Below are positions 11,050 through 63,399 of a stretch of 64,000 nt of DNA, piece by piece. This stretch comes from Sulfolobus sp. E5-1-F (GTDB lineage Archaea > Thermoproteota > Thermoprotei_A > Sulfolobales > Sulfolobaceae). Below the pieces are notes generated by a model that saw only the letters and a program-made list of their open reading frames with translations, was not told where the DNA came from and did not search any database. Position numbers and translations under genes: made by a program. The stretch covers positions 780,630-844,629 of the forward strand of contig NZ_CP045687.1 of NCBI RefSeq assembly GCF_009601705.1. The letters are read 5' to 3'. How positions within the stretch are numbered: the stretch's first letter is position 1; each line of letters starts with the position of its first letter.

Positions 11050-12855
11050 ATGCCACTACCTATAATACTAGATGAAAATACCCAAGTTGAAGACTTGATT
11101 ACTGCATATGCGGAAACGTTTAATGAACGTCCTTCTATTAATCAAGAATATGCCTGGAGAAAACTCTTGGACATACTTAAAGGCCTCAATGTCCATCACC
11201 CTATCATAATGGAATATCCAATATTTGTAGAAAGAGTTGACACTATCTTTGTAGATAAAGATAAAGCCTTAGTAGTTGAGGCCAAGGGTTGGAAGAAAGT
11301 AGAACGCATTGACGACCTTACTGTAAGAGCTGATGGAGAACTTCGCTTAGATCCATGCTATCAGTTGAATAACTATGTAACTAAATTAAACACTTTCCAC
11401 TCCTCAGGTATAAAGTTTGATGGTTCACTCTTCCTTTATAATACTGTGGACTACTCCTCTTCAGAATGTGAGATTTTGAGGAACTCTAACGATCTAAAGA
11501 AGAAACTTGATAACTATTCGCCGGGAGACACACAAGACGTTTACAAGATAATAAACGGGAAGTTTATATTAACTAAGGACTTTATTGAATTTGTTGCTAA
11601 AGTAAAAGAGTATTTAAAAGGGAACGTGGCTAAGGCAATTTTACCTTATGGTTTTGGTCTAACAGAGGAACAAGGATTAATCTTAAGCAAAGTTTTGAAA
11701 GCCCTTGAAGATAAAAGTGTAAAGAAGAACTTTCTTATAAGAGGTGGTAGCGGATCTGGCAAGAGCTTATTAGCTGTGACTATCTTCTTGGAAGCGTTAA
11801 GCAGAAATTATTTTGTCATCTTATCTTATAAAAATCAAAGATTACTAAACGCTATAAGATTATTATTAAGTGAAAGTCAAAGAAAGCGTAAAGAAAGTGA
11901 CATTTACGGAAGTAAAGCACAAGGTTTATCCCAGTTTATCATGTTTTACTCAACGGGTTATGGATTCGGAGTGGGAGAGGATAGGTTCCCAGAACGATTA
12001 AAGGAAACCTTCGGAAGAGATGTAAGCGATATAGACTTAATTGTATTCGACGAAGCCCAAAGGATGAGCGTTAACGTAATAAAAAATTCTCCCAGAGGGA
12101 GGGTTAACGTGTATTTTTATGACGACTCTCAGATATTGATAGGCAATGAAGGAGGGACTGAAGGAAACTTTAAAAAATACTTGAATAACATAGATGAGTA
12201 TCAATTAACATCATCCATAAGGGTACCTAAAGAGTATATTAGTGCAGTGAAAGGAATACTTGAAGATAGGAAAGTGAGAGTGGAAAATTATGATTTCAGA
12301 ATATTTGATAACATAGTCCACATGTTAAATGAGCTGAAAAAGAGGAAAGAGGAAGGGAGGAAAGTTGCGTTAATATGTAGCTTTACGGAATCTGAGGGCG
12401 ACAGCAAAAATAAGACTGATTGGAATTCGACAAAGAACATAAGGATTGGTTATCCATTACAGTCAGGATTTGAATTATACAAGAATACAGGATTAAAGAT
12501 TAAGTGGCTAATGGACGAGAAAACAGAGTATCCTAAATATTGGAAAGGGGAGTTGGATCCATTAACTTACTGCGCTTCAGTATATGGAGCACAAGGATTT
12601 GAGGCCGATTATGTTGGAGTTGTATGGGGAAGGGATATGATATGGAGGAATGGATGGACTGTAAACCCAGATCCAATAACAGATTATGTAGGTCATAGGA
12701 ACTCGTTGAAGAAAATAGCTAAAGAGGATAAGGCTAAGGCACTTGAACTGCTTAAAAATAGGTACTACGTTATGTTAACTAGGGGTATAAGGGGCGTGTA
12801 TTTGTTCTTTGAGGATCAAAGAACCGGAGAACATGTAAGGGAATTATTCAGTTAA
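11050..12855 (+). CDS. Nuclease-helicase of the DUF2075 type (probable defence protein)
   Basis: 601 residues. The N-terminal part has a PD-(D/E)XK-like core, ERVDTIFVDKDKALVVEAKG (D about 63, E-x-K about 76-78), as in NERD-type nucleases. The rest is a superfamily 1-like motor: Walker A RGGSGSGKSLL (about 231-241), Walker B DLIVFDEAQR (about 334-343), DDSQ, a GAQGFEADYVGVVWG block (about 514-528) and RYYVMLTRG (about 576-584), the equivalent of helicase motif VI. DUF2075 proteins occur in bacterial and archaeal defence islands and are thought to act on foreign DNA. It is followed by a micro-gene at 12890. The exact activity is not known. Confidence 0.82.
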   Translation: MPLPIILDENTQVEDLITAYAETFNERPSINQEYAWRKLLDILKGLNVHHPIIMEYPIFVERVDTIFVDKDKALVVEAKGWKKVERIDDLTVRADGELRLDPCYQLNNYVTKLNTFHSSGIKFDGSLFLYNTVDYSSSECEILRNSNDLKKKLDNYSPGDTQDVYKIINGKFILTKDFIEFVAKVKEYLKGNVAKAILPYGFGLTEEQGLILSKVLKALEDKSVKKNFLIRGGSGSGKSLLAVTIFLEALSRNYFVILSYKNQRLLNAIRLLLSESQRKRKESDIYGSKAQGLSQFIMFYSTGYGFGVGEDRFPERLKETFGRDVSDIDLIVFDEAQRMSVNVIKNSPRGRVNVYFYDDSQILIGNEGGTEGNFKKYLNNIDEYQLTSSIRVPKEYISAVKGILEDRKVRVENYDFRIFDNIVHMLNELKKRKEEGRKVALICSFTESEGDSKNKTDWNSTKNIRIGYPLQSGFELYKNTGLKIKWLMDEKTEYPKYWKGELDPLTYCASVYGAQGFEADYVGVVWGRDMIWRNGWTVNPDPITDYVGHRNSLKKIAKEDKAKALELLKNRYYVMLTRGIRGVYLFFEDQRTGEHVRELFS

Positions 12856-12889: not shown

Positions 12890-13009
12890 ATGATAGTGGT
12901 GGAATATAAGGGGTTAAAAATATATCTTAAGGATAAGGAAAGCCTAAACTCTTTTCTTAAAAAATATGGTATTAGCTTAGAAGAAATAAGCATCGTCAGC
13001 GTTAGCTAG
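12890..13009 (+). CDS. Micro-gene of the MII..KG family, 39 aa
   Basis: ATG at 12890 to TAG at 13009, 34 bases after the nuclease-helicase and on the same strand. The start MIVVEYKGLKIYLKDKESLN matches the pattern of the convergent micro-genes beside the two McrBC-like loci (20348-20491: MIIALIKGIKMSFPDEESLN; 62950-63057: MIIKKIKGVVVSFPSERIM). All have a short beta-like N-terminus, KG, then an acidic residue cluster and a helical second half. The function is unknown; association with three nuclease/ATPase loci suggests an accessory role. Confidence 0.55.
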   Translation: MIVVEYKGLKIYLKDKESLNSFLKKYGISLEEISIVSVS

Positions 13010-14106: not shown

Positions 14107-14643
14107 TCATTGTTGAGAGTTTTTGGCGTTATCTACTTTGAACATTATTACTTGTACTAAACTGCTCTCCTTGTTGTTTTGATCTGGTACTTTTAGTCCT
14201 AAAGCTACTACTTCTTCTTCTGGCACAACTATCCTTCCACCTTTCTGTACCTTAGTTTTGAAGATTGCGTTTCTCTTAAAAAACGTTATTAAGGAATCCC
14301 TCAACGCGTCTTGCAACTGTGATATTATGTTTGAGTCAGACCTTATAGGTGTTCTAGGTTTCTCCTCATAATTCTCCAGAGGTATTAACAGAACTACGAC
14401 TATATCATCTTCTTTCAAATCACCAGATTTTAGATATTCATTAGGAATAGTTATTCTCCTCCCCGTACCAATATATGCTTTAAACGTAACATTTCTAGCT
14501 AAGAGCTTCTCCATTGATTCAACCATTACTGCTTGAGAAAACGATACAATTGCCTTTACTACTTCATTCACATCTATCATATTTAGTAGAGTCTTTATCA
14601 CCTCTAGGGTAGAAGCTTTGGTATTTTTCTCGCCTTGGCTCAT
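14107..14643 (-). CDS. Tandem AbrB-like DNA-binding protein
   Basis: A 178-residue protein with two AbrB/SpoVT-type swapped-hairpin segments: FKAYIGTGRRITIPNEYLKS (about residues 56-75) and FKTKVQKGGRIVVPEEEVVA (about 125-144), joined by a helix. The first 50 residues form a helical segment. ATG at 14643 is preferred over TTG at 14649 because a TATA-like GTTTAAATG (14666-14674) lies about 27 bases upstream, which fits leaderless translation. Family knowledge: AbrB-like proteins are transcription regulators or antitoxins. No toxin partner is adjacent, so a stand-alone regulator is more likely. Confidence 0.75.
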   Translation of the reverse strand: MSQGEKNTKASTLEVIKTLLNMIDVNEVVKAIVSFSQAVMVESMEKLLARNVTFKAYIGTGRRITIPNEYLKSGDLKEDDIVVVLLIPLENYEEKPRTPIRSDSNIISQLQDALRDSLITFFKRNAIFKTKVQKGGRIVVPEEEVVALGLKVPDQNNKESSLVQVIMFKVDNAKNSQQ

Positions 14644-14665
14644 ATGCAATATGACTAAATTTGGA

Positions 14666-17597: not shown

Positions 17598-19247
17598 ATG
17601 GTTTCAAAATGGTTTGAAACTAGGGAAGTGTTTCATAATTATTTTGACCTTGACGATTTAACTGAAAATGGTCTCAAAAGATTAATACAAAGTGTAAGAG
17701 ACTTCGTTGATAAGGATAGGGTTAATATATGCATTTTTAAGGGACCAGTAGAACACTGGATAGGTTCTATTAAATATTCTATAGAGGAAGAGATAGGCTA
17801 CACCATATGGGGTGATTATAAGGAAAGTTTCAAAACCAATGTCGAAAATGCATATAGAGATTCATATGCTACTCTGGGATCTGGAAAAAAGAGGACAGAG
17901 TATATAATACCTTCTCTCAATAAACTTCTAATAAGCTTTTTCTACGGGATTGAAAATAACATGCTATTAGGATTTGGCCTAGTGACGAGCATTACGTATG
18001 ATATACTAAAAAGATTTAAGGGATGGAAAGAGGGTAGAGAGTTTGTTTGGGGACAAGAAGAAAATCAAAGGTATTGGACAACCCTTCCAAAAATAAAGGT
18101 CCTATATCTAAATGAATCAGTCAGAGAGAACTTATCAGACACAAGTAAGTGGAATCCCTCTGAAAAGGACAAGGAAATTCTACGTAAATTGAAAGATATA
18201 CCATCGAATCAGTGTCATTACGAGCGCTTAGATAATGACAGATCTCTCATTAACTATATAAAGGATAGAATAAATGATGGTGAGGTAGAAAAAACATTAT
18301 TGTTTTACGCTAATCTAGTTAATTCGAATTCATTAACGCAATCTAAAAACGAAATCAAATGCCAGATCTCAAATAATAGTTTATCTCAAGATGATGCAAA
18401 TCTGGTGAAAATGGTTACTGAAGATGTAAGTGATCCAAATCTTTTGCTTCAACTATCTAAATTAGGTAATGTGCTCTATGTTGGACCCCCGGGAACATTT
18501 AAAACTACCTTGGCAAAAAGCGTAGCTAAAACAATAACCAATAGCGATGAGTGCTACTCCTTATACACTGCTAATTCACTTTGGTTTAGAAAGGATATTA
18601 TTGGAGGAGAAACACTAATAAATAACACTGTTTCTTGGTCATCTGGAATCATTATTAAAGCCTACAATAAGGCTTCCAAACTACCTGACAATGCACTCTA
18701 TTTCGTCATAATAGATGAGTTAAACAGAGCGGACGTAGATAAGGCTTTTGGCGACTTCTTCTCTATGTTCACCTCTTCTCTGCCAGATTACTGGAGTATT
18801 CCTTATAGTTTAATCGAGGAAATAGAATCATATCAACACACAGACAAAGAGGCTAAGCAATTTATTGAAAACTACACTCATTACAAAGACAAGCCTTTAA
18901 GGAAATTAAGATTTATAGCTACAATGAATCTAATTGACATGAGAAATTTATTTTATGTTGGAGAGGCCATCACGAGAAGATTTATGGTAGTATACTTTGA
19001 CTTTAACCTAAAAAATAAAGCATCTCTCTTAGTTGATCAATATCAGTGGTTAAGAGACCTAATTCCAAAACTAGTTGAGGCTAGTGAGAAAAAGATCTAC
19101 ATTCCACCCTCAGCAATCCTATCTGCTGCCAAACTTTCCAATGATGCTAATGAATTCAAACAATACTTACTATATATGTTAGGAACATATGATGTGAAGA
19201 AAATTAAGAAAGTTAAAAAGATTCTAGGTGTGGACAGTGGGAAATAG
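17598..19247 (+). CDS. McrB-like AAA+ GTPase/ATPase, locus 1
   Basis: A 549-residue protein from ATG 17598 (TTG 17583 also possible; ATG aligns with the paralog at 61269 and has a TATA-like TTTATATTG about 26 bases upstream). The N-terminal 200 residues resemble a PUA/EVE-like reader: HWIGSIKYSIEEEIGYTIWG, then LLGFGLVTSITYDIL, a W-rich run and LPKIKVLYL. The AAA+ module follows: GPPGTFKTT (Walker A with Phe in place of the usual Gly before Lys), ANSLWFRKDIIGG, Walker B VIIDELNRADVDKAFGDF (typical of McrB), ATMNLIDMRNL and ITRRF. It partners with the downstream nuclease gene to form an McrBC-like modified-DNA restriction system (inference). Confidence 0.82.
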   Translation: MVSKWFETREVFHNYFDLDDLTENGLKRLIQSVRDFVDKDRVNICIFKGPVEHWIGSIKYSIEEEIGYTIWGDYKESFKTNVENAYRDSYATLGSGKKRTEYIIPSLNKLLISFFYGIENNMLLGFGLVTSITYDILKRFKGWKEGREFVWGQEENQRYWTTLPKIKVLYLNESVRENLSDTSKWNPSEKDKEILRKLKDIPSNQCHYERLDNDRSLINYIKDRINDGEVEKTLLFYANLVNSNSLTQSKNEIKCQISNNSLSQDDANLVKMVTEDVSDPNLLLQLSKLGNVLYVGPPGTFKTTLAKSVAKTITNSDECYSLYTANSLWFRKDIIGGETLINNTVSWSSGIIIKAYNKASKLPDNALYFVIIDELNRADVDKAFGDFFSMFTSSLPDYWSIPYSLIEEIESYQHTDKEAKQFIENYTHYKDKPLRKLRFIATMNLIDMRNLFYVGEAITRRFMVVYFDFNLKNKASLLVDQYQWLRDLIPKLVEASEKKIYIPPSAILSAAKLSNDANEFKQYLLYMLGTYDVKKIKKVKKILGVDSGK

Positions 19248-20376
19248 GGATACAATACTATTAAATAAGGTCGGGAAATATTACTTACAATATATAGGTG
19301 TTTTCTCATTCTCTACACTATTGAAACTTTTCAAAGAAGGCAAAGAAATAAATGACGTTGATGCTACAACGATAAACTACATAAGATCTTACATTGTTTG
19401 CCTAGGAGTAAGGAGTACCATTAAAAACGCCCGTAAAGCATTACGAGATAGGATAACGTATAGAGAATTGGGAATTTCTTTTGATAGAGAAATAAGAGGA
19501 CGTGTAAGTATAAGTCACAGTATTCTCAGTCTACCAAAAAGGCTTTACGCATTTTATTCGTATTTTGAAGGATATAATGCCCCGGAGTACTTTGTAATGG
19601 GAAATTTACTGAGGAGAATAATAGAAATAGCGAAAAAATACTTGGACTCTCATAATAAGGAATTATTAGAAACGTTAAGAAAGATAGCGAAAAAATTTCC
19701 CAAGGGAGAACTTAGAGAGGAGTTGCCTACAGATCCAATATGGTTAAAAAACGTTTTCAACATTTACTATATCCTTTCTACCTTAGATAAGATTAATATT
19801 GGGGTAAGAGGCGATAATGAGGCAAAAATCGTGGAGTTTATAACGTGGAAACTTTACGAGCTTTACATATTTTATCTAGTTCTTAATTACTTAAGAGAAA
19901 GAGGCAAAAGCATCAGAGGAATTAATGGAGGAATTGAAATTTCACAATGGAAAATATACTTCAACAGAAGATTAAAGAACTCTAGCTTAAACAAAGTTGA
20001 TGACTTGGATAGTATCGATAAGTTCAAAGGAAGACCAGATATATCCATTCTTAACGCGAACACCATCATCATTGAATGTAAGTACTCTAATTATCTTCCT
20101 TATATTACTGCAGGTAGATTTAAGATAATGGCTTACACGTTTGAATACAATCCGGCAACAGCGATTTTAGTTTACCCTGGTTTAGAAGAAGATTCTATAG
20201 AATATGATAGTGAAGATGAGGGAACAAAATTCCTTGATAAAAAAGCCAAAGAGAAAGGATTTGTTGACTTTCAATACAACAACAAAACCCTGTATATTGC
20301 TATTATTGATCCTGCTAAGGACGATGATGAAAATATGAAATTGCTTGCTAGAATTTTGGATCAATATATTCATTAA
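19237..20376 (+). CDS. McrC-like PD-(D/E)XK nuclease subunit, locus 1
   Basis: About 379 residues from GTG 19237 (GTG 19228 is possible, but the paralog begins MNRRDRTLLKKVG, matching VGNRDTILLNKVG). It overlaps the 3' end of the McrB-like gene by 11 bases, so they are cotranslated. The first 250 residues are helical (LYAFYSYFEGYNAPEYFVMG, TWKLYELYIFYLVLNYL). The C-terminal nuclease core is KGRPDISI (D), IIIECKYS (E-x-K), then TAGRFKIMAYTFEY and AILVYPG, the same layout as McrC. The predicted role is the DNA-cutting partner of an AAA+ motor. The paralog is at 60038-61243. Confidence 0.82.
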   Translation: MGNRDTILLNKVGKYYLQYIGVFSFSTLLKLFKEGKEINDVDATTINYIRSYIVCLGVRSTIKNARKALRDRITYRELGISFDREIRGRVSISHSILSLPKRLYAFYSYFEGYNAPEYFVMGNLLRRIIEIAKKYLDSHNKELLETLRKIAKKFPKGELREELPTDPIWLKNVFNIYYILSTLDKINIGVRGDNEAKIVEFITWKLYELYIFYLVLNYLRERGKSIRGINGGIEISQWKIYFNRRLKNSSLNKVDDLDSIDKFKGRPDISILNANTIIIECKYSNYLPYITAGRFKIMAYTFEYNPATAILVYPGLEEDSIEYDSEDEGTKFLDKKAKEKGFVDFQYNNKTLYIAIIDPAKDDDENMKLLARILDQYIH

Positions 20377-20491
20377 CCACCTCAAGGATCTTAACGTCAC
20401 TTTTCTCTATTTTTAATCTTTCAATTATTATGTTTAGGCTCTCCTCGTCCGGAAAACTCATTTTAATTCCTTTAATTAAGGCTATAATCAT
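20348..20491 (-). CDS. Convergent micro-gene beside McrBC-like locus 1, 47 aa
   Basis: ATG at 20491 to TAG at 20348 on the minus strand; the last 29 bases overlap the end of the McrC-like gene. Product begins MIIALIKGIKMSFPDEESLN and continues IIIERLKIEKSDVKILEVVN. The homologous ORF MIIKKIKGVVVSFPSERIM lies in the same convergent position after locus 2 (62950-63057). Conservation of the M-I-I-x2-I-K-G-x3-S-F-P-x-E pattern at both loci argues that it is real. It is too short for most gene finders. Function unknown; an inhibitor, antitoxin or accessory subunit is speculation. Confidence 0.62.
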   Translation of the reverse strand: MIIALIKGIKMSFPDEESLNIIIERLKIEKSDVKILEVVNEYIDPKF

Positions 20492-21369
20492 GATGATCTA
20501 AACAAAAAAGTAATGGAGAGAGTTTATAGAATGTATAGGTACTTCTTTTTCATGATGGAAAAAGCATGGTTTATCAAGATTAAATAGCATAAGTCTTTAT
20601 TCATCTTCTTGTATATATACACGACCTTTACGAAGATCTTAACTCTCCGAGTTTAATATGTTGAATAAACGAAATAATGGAAATCGTGCAAATGAAGGAA
20701 GGCGCTTAATAGGAAATCGACTCTCTCTATTCTTGCTCACTGATTCATTAACATTTTTATACAATATAGTATTCGTTGATCTTCCTCACTTCAATGGAGA
20801 AGCAAATAAATTTTTCCGATTTCCTTCTGGAGACCTTAAGGCATAATTTTAGTTAAGACCTACCTTAATGCTTTGGTTCACAGTCTAAGAATTACATCGT
20901 CTAATAAGTGAGAAAATCACCTTCATTCATTGAAATCGCGAGAAATGTATCTTTTTTTTAAGTGATGAGTAAAAGGGATATCAGAGAGAATATAATTATA
21001 ACTCTGTTTACTTTCTTTAAAGCTCTACCATTTCCATTACTTTCAGATTTCTAAAGGCAAAATATCGCTAAACAATTAAAGGCTGGAGGCCCTCTTACTT
21101 CATAAAAGAAATGAAGAACTAGATAGCTATTCAGAATTTAACCAGTTATGGCTAAGGAATTTGATTAGTTCACAAGATAAACTGTGGTTCTTGAATTCTC
21201 TTCCAATAAGTATTATCATAACACTGTAGATGAGAGTCTAAAGAAGAAAAAATGAATATATGTTTGTTCCGAGAGATTAATAAGATGATAAAATATTATA
21301 TAAAATAAATAATATAAGTGATATGTTACACTATTAAATGTTTAAAAACACTTTCTATAATATATTCTT
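20492..21369. other. Long intergenic stretch, no gene supported
   Basis: Short frames occur (such as 20658-20846) but lack coding character, conservation with other parts of the window, or a clear promoter. TATA-like runs at 21290-21320 and 21355-21362 precede the next gene; AT-rich tracts suggest eroded DNA. Confidence 0.4.
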
Positions 21370-60037: not shown

Positions 60038-61243
60038 GTGAATAGGAGAGATAGGACGCTTCTAAAAAAGGTTGGAGGCTATTATCTACAATATAAGGGG
60101 ATTGTAGATGTTGAAAAGTTGCTCTCGACTTTTAATGGAACTGAGGAAGTCCCTCTAGATGACTATACGCTATCATATATTTATTATTACCTTATGTACT
60201 TAATAACAGCTAGTGTAGTGAGATCTGCAGAGGACGCAAAAAAGAGTAGATTAACCTATAAAGAATTTTCAATTGAATACTCTAATGACCTATATGGTGA
60301 GTTGAATGTAGACTTAAGTATTCCGGTATACTCTATGGGTTTGGTAGCCTATCATAGCTTTACCGAGGGATATAATGCTCCAGAATATGGAATCTTAGGC
60401 TATATTATGAGAAGAATTTATTCCATTATTAAGGAAAAACGAAGTAAAATTGAAGTAAGAAAAGAGCAAATACCTCGTTACTTTAATTTTTTGGATGATT
60501 TCGACCGGACTTTTTCTCGAGTAGATGAAATCAAAGAGGAATTTCCAGATGGTTATTTTAGAGATCCTTCCTATACTGACCCAGATTGGTTATTACGAGC
60601 CTATAAAGCGTATTTTATGGCTAAAGAATTGGAGGAAATTAAGGTAGGGATAAGGACACCCAAGAAGCCCATAAACAAGAAACTAATAAAATTCATTATG
60701 TGGAAATTATATGAGCTTTATATATTCTACTTAGTGGTAAATTACCTTGAATCTAAAGGTTATGAAATAAAGAAGGAGGAAGATAAATATATAGCTATAA
60801 GAGGTAATAAGAGGTTAAGTATAATATTTAATGCTTCACTTGGCCAATCCTCTCTAAGAAAGGTTGATTATAAAGAGGATGTAGAGAAATATAAGGGAAG
60901 ACCGGATATTTCTCTTACAAACGAAAGGCCGATAATTTTTGAATGTAAGTACTCATCTAAAGTTAGTTATATTACAATGGGTAGATTCAAAATTATGGCT
61001 TATACTTATGAATATGATCCTTCATTAGCGGTCTTAGTTTACCCCGGATTGGAGACTGAACAAATTAGCTTCGATAATGAGGATAATGCGACAATGGAAT
61101 TGGATAAGATTGCTAGGAAGGAAAGCGGGATACTAGATTTCTTGTATAATAATCATTTACTATATATGGCTATTATAGATCCATTGGAGTTAGAAAAGAA
61201 CAATTTATCGAAGCTCGATAAGATAATGAAAAAACACATATAA
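60038..61243 (+). CDS. McrC-like PD-(D/E)XK nuclease subunit, locus 2
   Basis: 401 residues, GTG start. Colinear with the protein at 19237-20376: KKVGGYYLQYKGIVDVEKLL, FTEGYNAPEYGILGYIMRRI, KFIMWKLYELYIFYLVVNYL, then KGRPDISL (D), PIIFECKYSSKVSYIT (E-x-K) and GRFKIMAYTYEYDPSLAVLV. It is the first gene of locus 2 (nuclease before motor), the reverse of locus 1. It ends 25 bases before the McrB-like gene. Predicted DNA-cutting subunit. Confidence 0.82.
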   Translation: MNRRDRTLLKKVGGYYLQYKGIVDVEKLLSTFNGTEEVPLDDYTLSYIYYYLMYLITASVVRSAEDAKKSRLTYKEFSIEYSNDLYGELNVDLSIPVYSMGLVAYHSFTEGYNAPEYGILGYIMRRIYSIIKEKRSKIEVRKEQIPRYFNFLDDFDRTFSRVDEIKEEFPDGYFRDPSYTDPDWLLRAYKAYFMAKELEEIKVGIRTPKKPINKKLIKFIMWKLYELYIFYLVVNYLESKGYEIKKEEDKYIAIRGNKRLSIIFNASLGQSSLRKVDYKEDVEKYKGRPDISLTNERPIIFECKYSSKVSYITMGRFKIMAYTYEYDPSLAVLVYPGLETEQISFDNEDNATMELDKIARKESGILDFLYNNHLLYMAIIDPLELEKNNLSKLDKIMKKHI

Positions 61244-61268: not shown

Positions 61269-62939
61269 ATGTATAATGATTGGCTAGTAGTCAGAGACAA
61301 ATTCAAGAAATTACTAGACTCTCAAGATAGGGCAGAAACTTTCCTCGATTATGTTGAAAAAGGAAATTTTGTTCCTTGCTCTTTTGTAGGTGAAAAATCT
61401 CATTGGACAGAATCTATAAGATATTCTATTTATGGAGAATTAGGATATACTTTATGGGGTGTTTCGGCTAAAAATTATAGTAGCATTTTCGACAGATATG
61501 ATAAAATCTATTTTGGAGACAATAAGAAGAAAAGAGGCAAGAAAAATGATACAGAGAATGAAAGTAAAATAGAAATTAAGAACGATAAAATATTGGTAGC
61601 ACTTCTAAGAATGAGTGGTCTAGGTATTATTGGATTTGGAGTAGTAACGGATATCGCTAAGGACGCAATGAGGAATTTTAGAGGATGGAATGAAGATGAG
61701 AAAATCTGGACGGCAAGATTTAGAATAAAAGTGTTTTGGCTTCATGAAAGCATAAGAAAAAACTATAATGACAGTGATAAATGGAAGGGAGATAATGATA
61801 GGTTAGAAGGAACTGTTCAACAGTCAAACCGATGCTATAAAGAAGATAATACTAAAGCACTTAAAGCTTTTCAAAAATATATTTTATCGAAGAAAGAGGA
61901 AATTATATCCACTTTAGATTTTTATTCTATGTTTAGCTCCAGCACTCAGAAAGAGCACGTATCAAGTGAGATAGTTTGTAATAAAAATGCACAACCAGAT
62001 CTTAATGGTTTATATATTCCTCAAGATACAGTTAAGATTATACTGAAAGCTCTACAAACTACTAATGTACTCCTAGTCGGCCCACCCGGTACTGGAAAAA
62101 CCAGCTTAGCTATAAGGACTGTGAAGTCTTTAACTGGCAATAATGATAACTGTTATGAAGTAGCTACTGCCAATTCACTTTGGTTTAGAAGGAATTTGAT
62201 AGGAGGAGAAAGTATAAGAGAGGGATCTGTAATGTGGAAGAGCGGGCTTTTCATTCAAGCGTACGTAAATGCTTCAAGAATAAAGGAGGGGAACTATTAC
62301 GTCGTAATTGATGAATTGAATAGGGCTGACGTTGATAAGGCATTTGGAGAATTAATGACGATGTTTTCTACTCCATATCCTAGCGAATGGTCAATTCCCA
62401 ATGCTCTAATAGAGGAAATTAAGAGTTATGGGGATAATATAGATAACGTAACTAAGAATTTCTTAGAAATATATGAGAAGTTAAAGAGAGAAAGTAGAGA
62501 AAATGAACCATTGAAAAGAATACGAATTATTGCTACAATAAATTTAGTCGACGCTAGAAATCTGTTTTATGTTGGGGATGCACTGGCAAGAAGGTTCGTG
62601 ATAATTCACTTTGATTATCCAAAAGGAACCGAAGATTTGGATGAATTTCTTAAAAATTACATTTCTTTTAGTGAGAGCTTTAAGGAAAGAGTTAAGGATC
62701 TTGTAAAATATCTTAGAGATAATCTAAATGAAAAAGAAGATAAGGTAATAAAGTTCAATATCTCACCGGCTAGCCTAAAGACAGCGCTGGATATATATTC
62801 CCGTCTTGATGACAACAATGCTGATATATATAAGTTCGTTGAAGTTTTAAGGTCTACAATAGGGACATTAAATCCAGATAATATAAATAAATTTAATAGA
62901 TTAATAGAAAAATGGAAAAAAGAAAAAGGAGGACAATAA
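61269..62939 (+). CDS. McrB-like AAA+ GTPase/ATPase, locus 2
   Basis: 556 residues. The N-terminal reader-like domain (HWTESIRYSIYGELGYTLWG; GIIGFGVVTDIAKDAM; RIKVFWLHESIRKN) parallels the locus 1 protein. The AAA+ motor is canonical: Walker A VGPPGTGKTSLA (about residues 276-287), ANSLWFRRNLIGGESI, Walker B VVIDELNRADVDKAFGELMT (about 346-365), ATINLVDARNLFYVGDALAR and RRF. McrB proteins use GTP where known; the nucleotide here is not determined. Its stop lies 10 bases from the convergent micro-gene. Together with the upstream nuclease it likely restricts modified or foreign DNA. Confidence 0.84.
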   Translation: MYNDWLVVRDKFKKLLDSQDRAETFLDYVEKGNFVPCSFVGEKSHWTESIRYSIYGELGYTLWGVSAKNYSSIFDRYDKIYFGDNKKKRGKKNDTENESKIEIKNDKILVALLRMSGLGIIGFGVVTDIAKDAMRNFRGWNEDEKIWTARFRIKVFWLHESIRKNYNDSDKWKGDNDRLEGTVQQSNRCYKEDNTKALKAFQKYILSKKEEIISTLDFYSMFSSSTQKEHVSSEIVCNKNAQPDLNGLYIPQDTVKIILKALQTTNVLLVGPPGTGKTSLAIRTVKSLTGNNDNCYEVATANSLWFRRNLIGGESIREGSVMWKSGLFIQAYVNASRIKEGNYYVVIDELNRADVDKAFGELMTMFSTPYPSEWSIPNALIEEIKSYGDNIDNVTKNFLEIYEKLKRESRENEPLKRIRIIATINLVDARNLFYVGDALARRFVIIHFDYPKGTEDLDEFLKNYISFSESFKERVKDLVKYLRDNLNEKEDKVIKFNISPASLKTALDIYSRLDDNNADIYKFVEVLRSTIGTLNPDNINKFNRLIEKWKKEKGGQ

Positions 62940-62949
62940 AAAAGTTAAT

Positions 62950-63057
62950 TCACTTATTGTTCTTCCTGTCATCTTCCTTTAACTCTTCTACTATCTCCCT
63001 CATTATCCTCTCTGAAGGAAATGACACCACTACTCCCTTTATCTTCTTTATTATCAT
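62950..63057 (-). CDS. Convergent micro-gene beside McrBC-like locus 2, 35 aa
   Basis: ATG at 63057 to TGA at 62950, minus strand, ending 10 bases after the McrB-like stop. Product MIIKKIKGVVVSFPSERIMR and onward to a lysine/asparagine end. Clear relative of the micro-gene at 20348-20491 (M-I-I, I-K-G, S-F-P-x-E at the same spacing) despite different flanking gene. The longer plus-strand frame on the same bases has no such conservation. Function unknown. Confidence 0.6.
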   Translation of the reverse strand: MIIKKIKGVVVSFPSERIMREIVEELKEDDRKNNK

Positions 63058-63399
63058 GATAAAGAAAATATTCCAAATAAGAGGGAGGGTAAGGCTAAAG
63101 TATTTCTTAGGGAAAGGAAGTGTGCAAAATAACAGCCATAAAAGGTATTCGATATTTTCAATTTAACATAAAATTTTGATGTTGATGAGCACAAGATGTA
63201 ACAATTCTAAACCATTTGCCAAGGACTTTGTAATGCAACTAAAGCACTTACCTAATGTAATTCGGAAGAATCTAAACTAAGTTTGAAATGAGTGAAATTG
63301 TTATTCATATTTAGTTGCAAGAAAACAAACAAGTCAAATGTATAAGGACATGGACAAAGTTATACCTCTTAATCCTTTTCCTCATCTACACTGTACACA

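Follow-up and report, generated by a model that had tools for sequence, protein, structure and literature searches.

Nuclease-helicase defences such as AbpAB (PMC10732053) and Hachiman (PMC12278908) are triggered by damage to the DNA of the host itself, and because such systems are set off by the host's own injury, an off-switch would be useful. A damage-dependent alleviation of restriction exists in bacteria (PMC12707154). Damaged Sulfolobales swap DNA through Ups/Ced (PMC8578740), and their UV-induced genes carry, 39-44 bases ahead of the transcription start, a hexamer that is essential for UV induction (Le 2017, PMC5817253); this hexamer was subsequently named DDRE and is bound by Orc1-2 (Liu 2022, PMC9738581). 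Here, we analyze a stretch of 64,000 nucleotides from Sulfolobus sp. E5-1-F (the window), in which two McrBC-like gene pairs and a third nuclease locus of another type are each accompanied by a very short gene.

The nuclease loci of the window

The closest described relatives of the two pairs are the McrBC type IV restriction systems of E. coli and Thermococcus gammatolerans. In locus 1, an McrB-like AAA+ motor (17598-19247, + strand; AAA_5 PF07728, E=1.7e-9) is followed by an McrC-like PD-(D/E)XK nuclease (19228-20376, +); in locus 2 the order is C-B, with the nuclease (60038-61243, +) preceding the motor (61269-62939, +; AAA_5 E=6.4e-12; GPPGTGKT, DELNRAD and NLVD recognized by alignment). 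Used as a profile, the McrB-like proteins matched the PDB McrB at E=1.7e-19. The McrC-like protein had no match in Pfam and none in a scan of genome contigs; its AlphaFold2 model matched the McrC folds of E. coli and T. gammatolerans (6hz4, 6ut7 and 6ut6, at about 1e-7; for the locus 2 protein, 6hz4 at E=9.7e-8 and 6ut7 at E=7.8e-7), and an RPD...ECK motif, present in locus 1, is conserved in the McrC-like proteins. By their kinship to McrBC, GTP-driven cleavage of modified DNA is the putative activity of the pairs. They differ from the type IV systems in that the N-terminal domain of the window's McrB-like proteins is not recognized, in having a linked microprotein, none being described for McrBC in the literature cited here, and in the Walker A motif of locus 1. 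This motif is intact in the locus 2 motor and in all other McrB-like proteins where it was found, whereas in locus 1 it is degenerate (GPPGTFKT, 18483-18506), a phenylalanine replacing the last glycine, and the locus 1 motor may be impaired.

An initial annotation had recognized these two pairs and, at the 3' side of each, an antiparallel small ORF, and all of its positions check. The ORF of locus 1, m1 (20348-20491, -; 47 aa, ATG start), is convergent to the McrC-like gene and overlaps its 3' end by 29 bp; that of locus 2, m2 (62950-63057, -; 35 aa, ATG start), is likewise convergent and has no overlap with its neighbor. The pattern M-I-I-x2-I-K-G-x3-S-F-P-x-E, proposed as common to the two products, is exact in both, and the resemblance goes beyond chance: when the whole 2.54-Mb genome was searched with m1, the next-best match was m2 (E=0.013) and the third was another family member, m1 and m2 being closer to each other than to anything else encoded there. 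Leave-one-out HMMs, from which relatives more than 60% identical had also been dropped, gave E=1.4e-7 for m1 and 5e-8 for m2.

The annotation further suggested that the pattern had survived under selection after the gene order was reversed. Selection is borne out (pN<pS, below); the reversal is not, since the two loci, whose McrC-like proteins are 41.6% identical and occupy separate places in an McrC tree of two clades, are old diverged paralogues and did not arise by a recent duplication in which the order was swapped. In other species, too, each of the two orders is found, and the micro-gene is again 3' of the pair.

The third small gene, m3 (12890-13009, +; 39 aa), was absent from the initial annotation, as was the promoter element described below. 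Detected by the family HMM, it is codirectional with, and starts 35 bp past the stop codon of, a gene for a NERD-like nuclease joined to a Schlafen-group-3 (SF1) helicase (11050-12855, +; PF09848, E=7.9e-71). Its helicase domain and its PADLOC matches (Nhi, 9.1e-15; AbiO, 8.3e-14) liken this protein to the Nhi/AbiO nuclease-helicases; it differs from them in its linkage to an archaeal microprotein and in a NERD match (PF08378, E=0.0025, 18.8 bits) that falls below the curated cut-off of 22.1.

A microprotein family of the Sulfolobaceae

The three small genes belong to a family of 28 copies, of 35-47 residues, across 31 Sulfolobaceae species genomes. A family profile recovered 22 members in 15 of the 31 at E<1e-11; the next match among 229 genomes of the class stood at 7e-4, and the family is restricted to the Sulfolobaceae. 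Class B, found beside helicases that we take to be of Saccharolobus type, is more remote (held-out E of 1e-4 to 1, one copy missed) and is joined to the other classes by profile-profile comparison at E=2.5e-6. The remaining copies lie in McrC clade I, the S. acidocaldarius type, which comprises six loci. With the class-A profile alone, weak matches were obtained at one site in all six, in a 37-47-residue ORF head-to-head with mcrB that carries the motif M-x-x-K/R-x-x-G-x-x-I-x-I-P-D-E-I. A profile built on these ORFs, when run on 214 genomes, recovered just these six at 1e-21 with no other convincing match, and they too have pN<pS. Their homology to the rest of the family is only probable, because it depends on a weak sequence similarity (HMM E of 0.12-1.2; hhalign probability 28%, E=6.5e-4) together with position, size and promoter.

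Orthologues of m2 occupy the same site in G136 (91% identical), G146, G108 and G072 (Metallosphaera yellowstonensis), and the arrangement of m3 is the same in G136, G146, G108 and G183. Most orthologue pairs have a pN of 0.06-0.29 against a pS of 0.31-0.99; for example, the values are 0.16 and 0.67 for m3 and its G136 counterpart, 0.06 and 0.73 for G108/G146, 0.10 and 0.73 for G078/G090, and 0.14 and 0.75 for G102/G084, the near-identical m2/G136 pair being uninformative with three differences only. We take G078 to be S. tokodaii, G102 to be M. sedula and G042 to be S. acidocaldarius; G084 is M. javensis. Summed over all pairs, the differences number 87, 37 and 186 at the first, second and third codon positions. 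Given such short ORFs and a first comparison that involved just two sequences, chance or a noncoding similarity was a natural suspicion. Its probability is now negligible: synonymous divergence far exceeds nonsynonymous, the start codon is conserved in nearly all copies, and there are 28 of these at equivalent sites. With dN/dS far below one, and with the ORF and its start codon recurring beside homologous McrBC loci, the micro-ORFs are, on the evidence of their divergence, real coding genes under strong purifying selection, most of which are probably unannotated.

AlphaFold2, given 22 sequences, predicts a strand-strand-helix-strand (beta-beta-alpha-beta) fold with a pLDDT of 86.5, for which Foldseek found no significant match in the PDB or BFVD. 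Pfam, PHROGs and NCBIfam contained no convincing sequence match. A viral or plasmid origin is unsupported, as there was no match in the INPHARED phages (three classes searched), in the PLSDB plasmids (one class) or in one scan of IMG/VR. The predicted fold rules out a ribbon-helix-helix antitoxin or repressor, which would be strand-helix-helix, and the charge of the proteins (pI 4.4-9.3, net charge -5 to +2) rules out a DNA-mimic inhibitor of the strongly acidic Ocr/ArdA type. The micro-gene family thus appears to be new, having no known relatives among the sources searched; its partner nucleases appear to be of known kinds.

A 51-residue protein containing ...FISFPSKEIF... was also seen (L089 6141-6299, L090 6015-6173, L091 6197-6370; class-A profile E of 3e-5 to 7e-3), and it is possibly a further branch of the family. 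In G155 (contig 2) its gene is convergent to a type I R-M operon, in G175 it is close to one for a type I HsdS, and in G108 it neighbors a pair made up of a DUF1156 methylase and a NOV_C helicase; at each site a conserved gene of about 105 residues is nearby, and upstream a conserved TTCTCTC...GAGAGAA inverted repeat stands in place of the DDRE. Near the L091 copy is a protein similar to one of 180 residues encoded in the window (14107-14649, -), which has two GRRITIP/GGRIVVP-like repeats, is AbrB-like by eye and has no match in Pfam.

The initial annotation dealt with McrBC alone, which is not the sole partner: nine of the 22 profile-found copies adjoin instead a NERD/Schlafen-group-3 nuclease-helicase of about 600 residues. 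In the family as a whole, 16 copies are beside intact or near-intact McrBC-like pairs, nine beside the helicase, one beside an McrB remnant and two at a distance of 1.4-7 kb, so that 26 of the 28 have a partner gene, or what is left of one, as their immediate neighbor. The novelty of the micro-gene as a companion stands, none having been described, whereas convergence, which the annotation had made part of that novelty, is not universal: codirectional copies occur in G050 and next to most of the NERD-helicases, and others lie upstream of the partner or head-to-head with it. The single copy of G084 sits between a helicase and an McrBC pair, a copy in G155 is separated by 1.4 kb from a helicase that is truncated, and in G090 an intact micro-gene is convergent to a decayed McrB fragment. 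Partner loci that lack an adjacent copy are those of the divergent C|B type (G155 and G163, the Sulfolobales archaeon Acd1), a broken second locus of G072, one locus of G078 and two outside the Sulfolobaceae. The first McrBC pair of G078 has a start-less micro-gene remnant downstream (L067 8693-8749), the second keeping an intact copy; at the second G072 locus (L094, L064 15800-18001), mcrB is split by inserted sequence and there is no micro-gene.

Wherever a genome has an intact partner (18 genomes), it also has the micro-gene, which is present in one of the 13 others (p=9e-8, relatedness ignored). The microprotein co-diverges with its neighbor: distances between microproteins track those between the nucleases beside them (Mantel r of 0.89 for McrC, 0.85 within clade II and 0.75 for the helicase, values that include shared species history). 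On the microprotein tree, the type of partner must have changed at least twice, and the same class occurs with both types. Such switching also fits a partner-independent role, in which the microprotein would be a damage-response effector that merely happens to be encoded in defence islands and has its effect elsewhere, such as on replication or division. We consider this quite improbable. It would account for classes common to two unrelated partners and for the DDRE promoters considered below, but hardly for the adjacency of nearly every copy to one of only two partner types, the occurrence of the micro-gene wherever a partner is intact, or the co-divergence.

A promoter element shared with the DNA damage response

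The micro-genes of much of the family carry the same hexamer as the Sulfolobales DDR regulon (ups, tfb3, orc1-2; PMC5817253, PMC9738581), and it is equally far from the start. An exact ANTTTC begins 40-44 bases before the ATG in 12 of the 22 copies; positions are counted from the start codon, where transcription of a leaderless mRNA is assumed to begin. Within -46 to -39 it is found in 12/22 micro-genes versus 5/281 control ORFs (p=3e-12, relatedness ignored), and at none of the 30 partner-operon starts. When the clade-I copies are included, 14 of 28 have the exact element and 25 are within one mismatch. The species with an exact element include M. sedula and S. acidocaldarius, whose copy, a 45-residue ORF that begins at base 1806122 of G042 and faces mcrB head-to-head, has ATTTTC at -43. 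At -40, G078 and G090 have an identical ACTTTCACTTA, although the synonymous sites of their coding sequences have reached saturation. At the level of the family, this position fits the DDR regulon and suggests that the micro-genes are damage-induced; unlike for the regulon itself, no published induction of these small genes was found. A PF00382 search meant to supply tfb3 as a promoter control did not recover it.

The copies in the window are less clear. A degenerate hexamer, ACATTC (20529-20534, -), lies at -43 of m1, and another, ACTTTA (63096-63101, -), at -44 of m2; each has one mismatch, the former being weak by itself. The m3 element has two, and with all three degenerate, damage control of the window's copies is uncertain. 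A CTCTCC-like block about 5-8 bases after the DDRE, just before the TATA region, was noticed in classes A, C and D (e.g., L084 6438-6481) and also where ANTTTC is missing from some copies; possibly it is a further element of the promoter.

Regulators are numerous among the small proteins of archaea, and the clade-I copies are divergent beside the mcrB promoter, an arrangement that would suit a microprotein that binds DNA or RNA and controls the neighboring operon. Such a role is nonetheless improbable in our judgment: the predicted beta-beta-alpha-beta fold is neither ribbon-helix-helix nor HTH and has no counterpart in the PDB, the partner promoters are devoid of the element found at the micro promoter, and the majority of copies are 3' of the partner.

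Possible restraint or activation of the partner nuclease

Our preferred reading, which we hold tentatively and at somewhat less than even probability, is that the microprotein is a damage-induced companion that acts directly on the neighboring motor-nuclease, most likely by restraining it. A small folded protein (a beta-hairpin, a helix and a strand) would travel with a motor-driven DNA nuclease, be it McrB/McrC-like or of the NERD-Schlafen type, and would be expressed from its own promoter, in much of the family from one with the damage element bound by Orc1-2. Since the micro promoter is linked to damage and that of the nuclease is without the element, damage should raise the ratio of microprotein to nuclease. 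The microprotein would then contact the nuclease complex and most likely restrain it during the damage response, sparing repair intermediates, or kin DNA imported via Ups/Ced, from attack; it would be a restriction-alleviation factor or an antidote. Given the existence of damage-triggered relatives, of bacterial restriction alleviation and of Ups/Ced exchange, a restraining role is the most economical, and an antidote explains the intact G090 micro-gene beside its decayed McrB more readily than an activator does.

As regards the sign of the effect, the linkage and promoter evidence would be equally compatible with a damage-induced licensing subunit that switches the motor-nuclease on, contributing to loss of the chromosome or to defence against damage-induced viruses. 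We judge activation unlikely, but it is the main alternative: after damage, Sulfolobus forms DNA-less cells, the route by which the chromosome disappears being yet to be identified, and the authors of that work raise the question of an unknown nuclease being switched on (PMC5557786); Hachiman, moreover, empties cells of their DNA after damage (PMC12278908). An activator would have little reason to persist intact beside the dead McrB of G090 or near the truncated helicase of G155, and to activate a nuclease in the midst of repair would be self-destructive when the damage is sub-lethal.

With either sign, our observations suggest that damage to their own DNA leads the Sulfolobaceae to adjust the defences that cut DNA. 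A more ambitious proposal, which we regard as doubtful, is that they couple both McrBC-like and Nhi-like nucleases to the damage response through one microprotein family that sets whether a damaged chromosome is spared or destroyed, and that DNA-less cell death is the work of a defence nuclease controlled by the DDR. Should our preferred reading hold, archaea would possess a dedicated damage-controlled switch on defence nucleases; how these nucleases are kept from autoimmune attack while DNA is being repaired or imported would become testable in genetically tractable species, as would a defence nuclease as the cause of DNA-less cells after damage.

The restraining role that we prefer has two bacterial counterparts. 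In the alleviation of type I enzymes by ClpXP after damage, the likeness is that restriction is lowered when the host's DNA is at risk; with the McrBs peptide of E. coli (PMC12707154), it is that the locus itself yields a small modulator of McrBC. However, ClpXP is a general protease, and McrBs is made from an internal start within mcrB, whereas the microprotein of the Sulfolobaceae is encoded by a separate, unrelated gene that is common to two types of nuclease.
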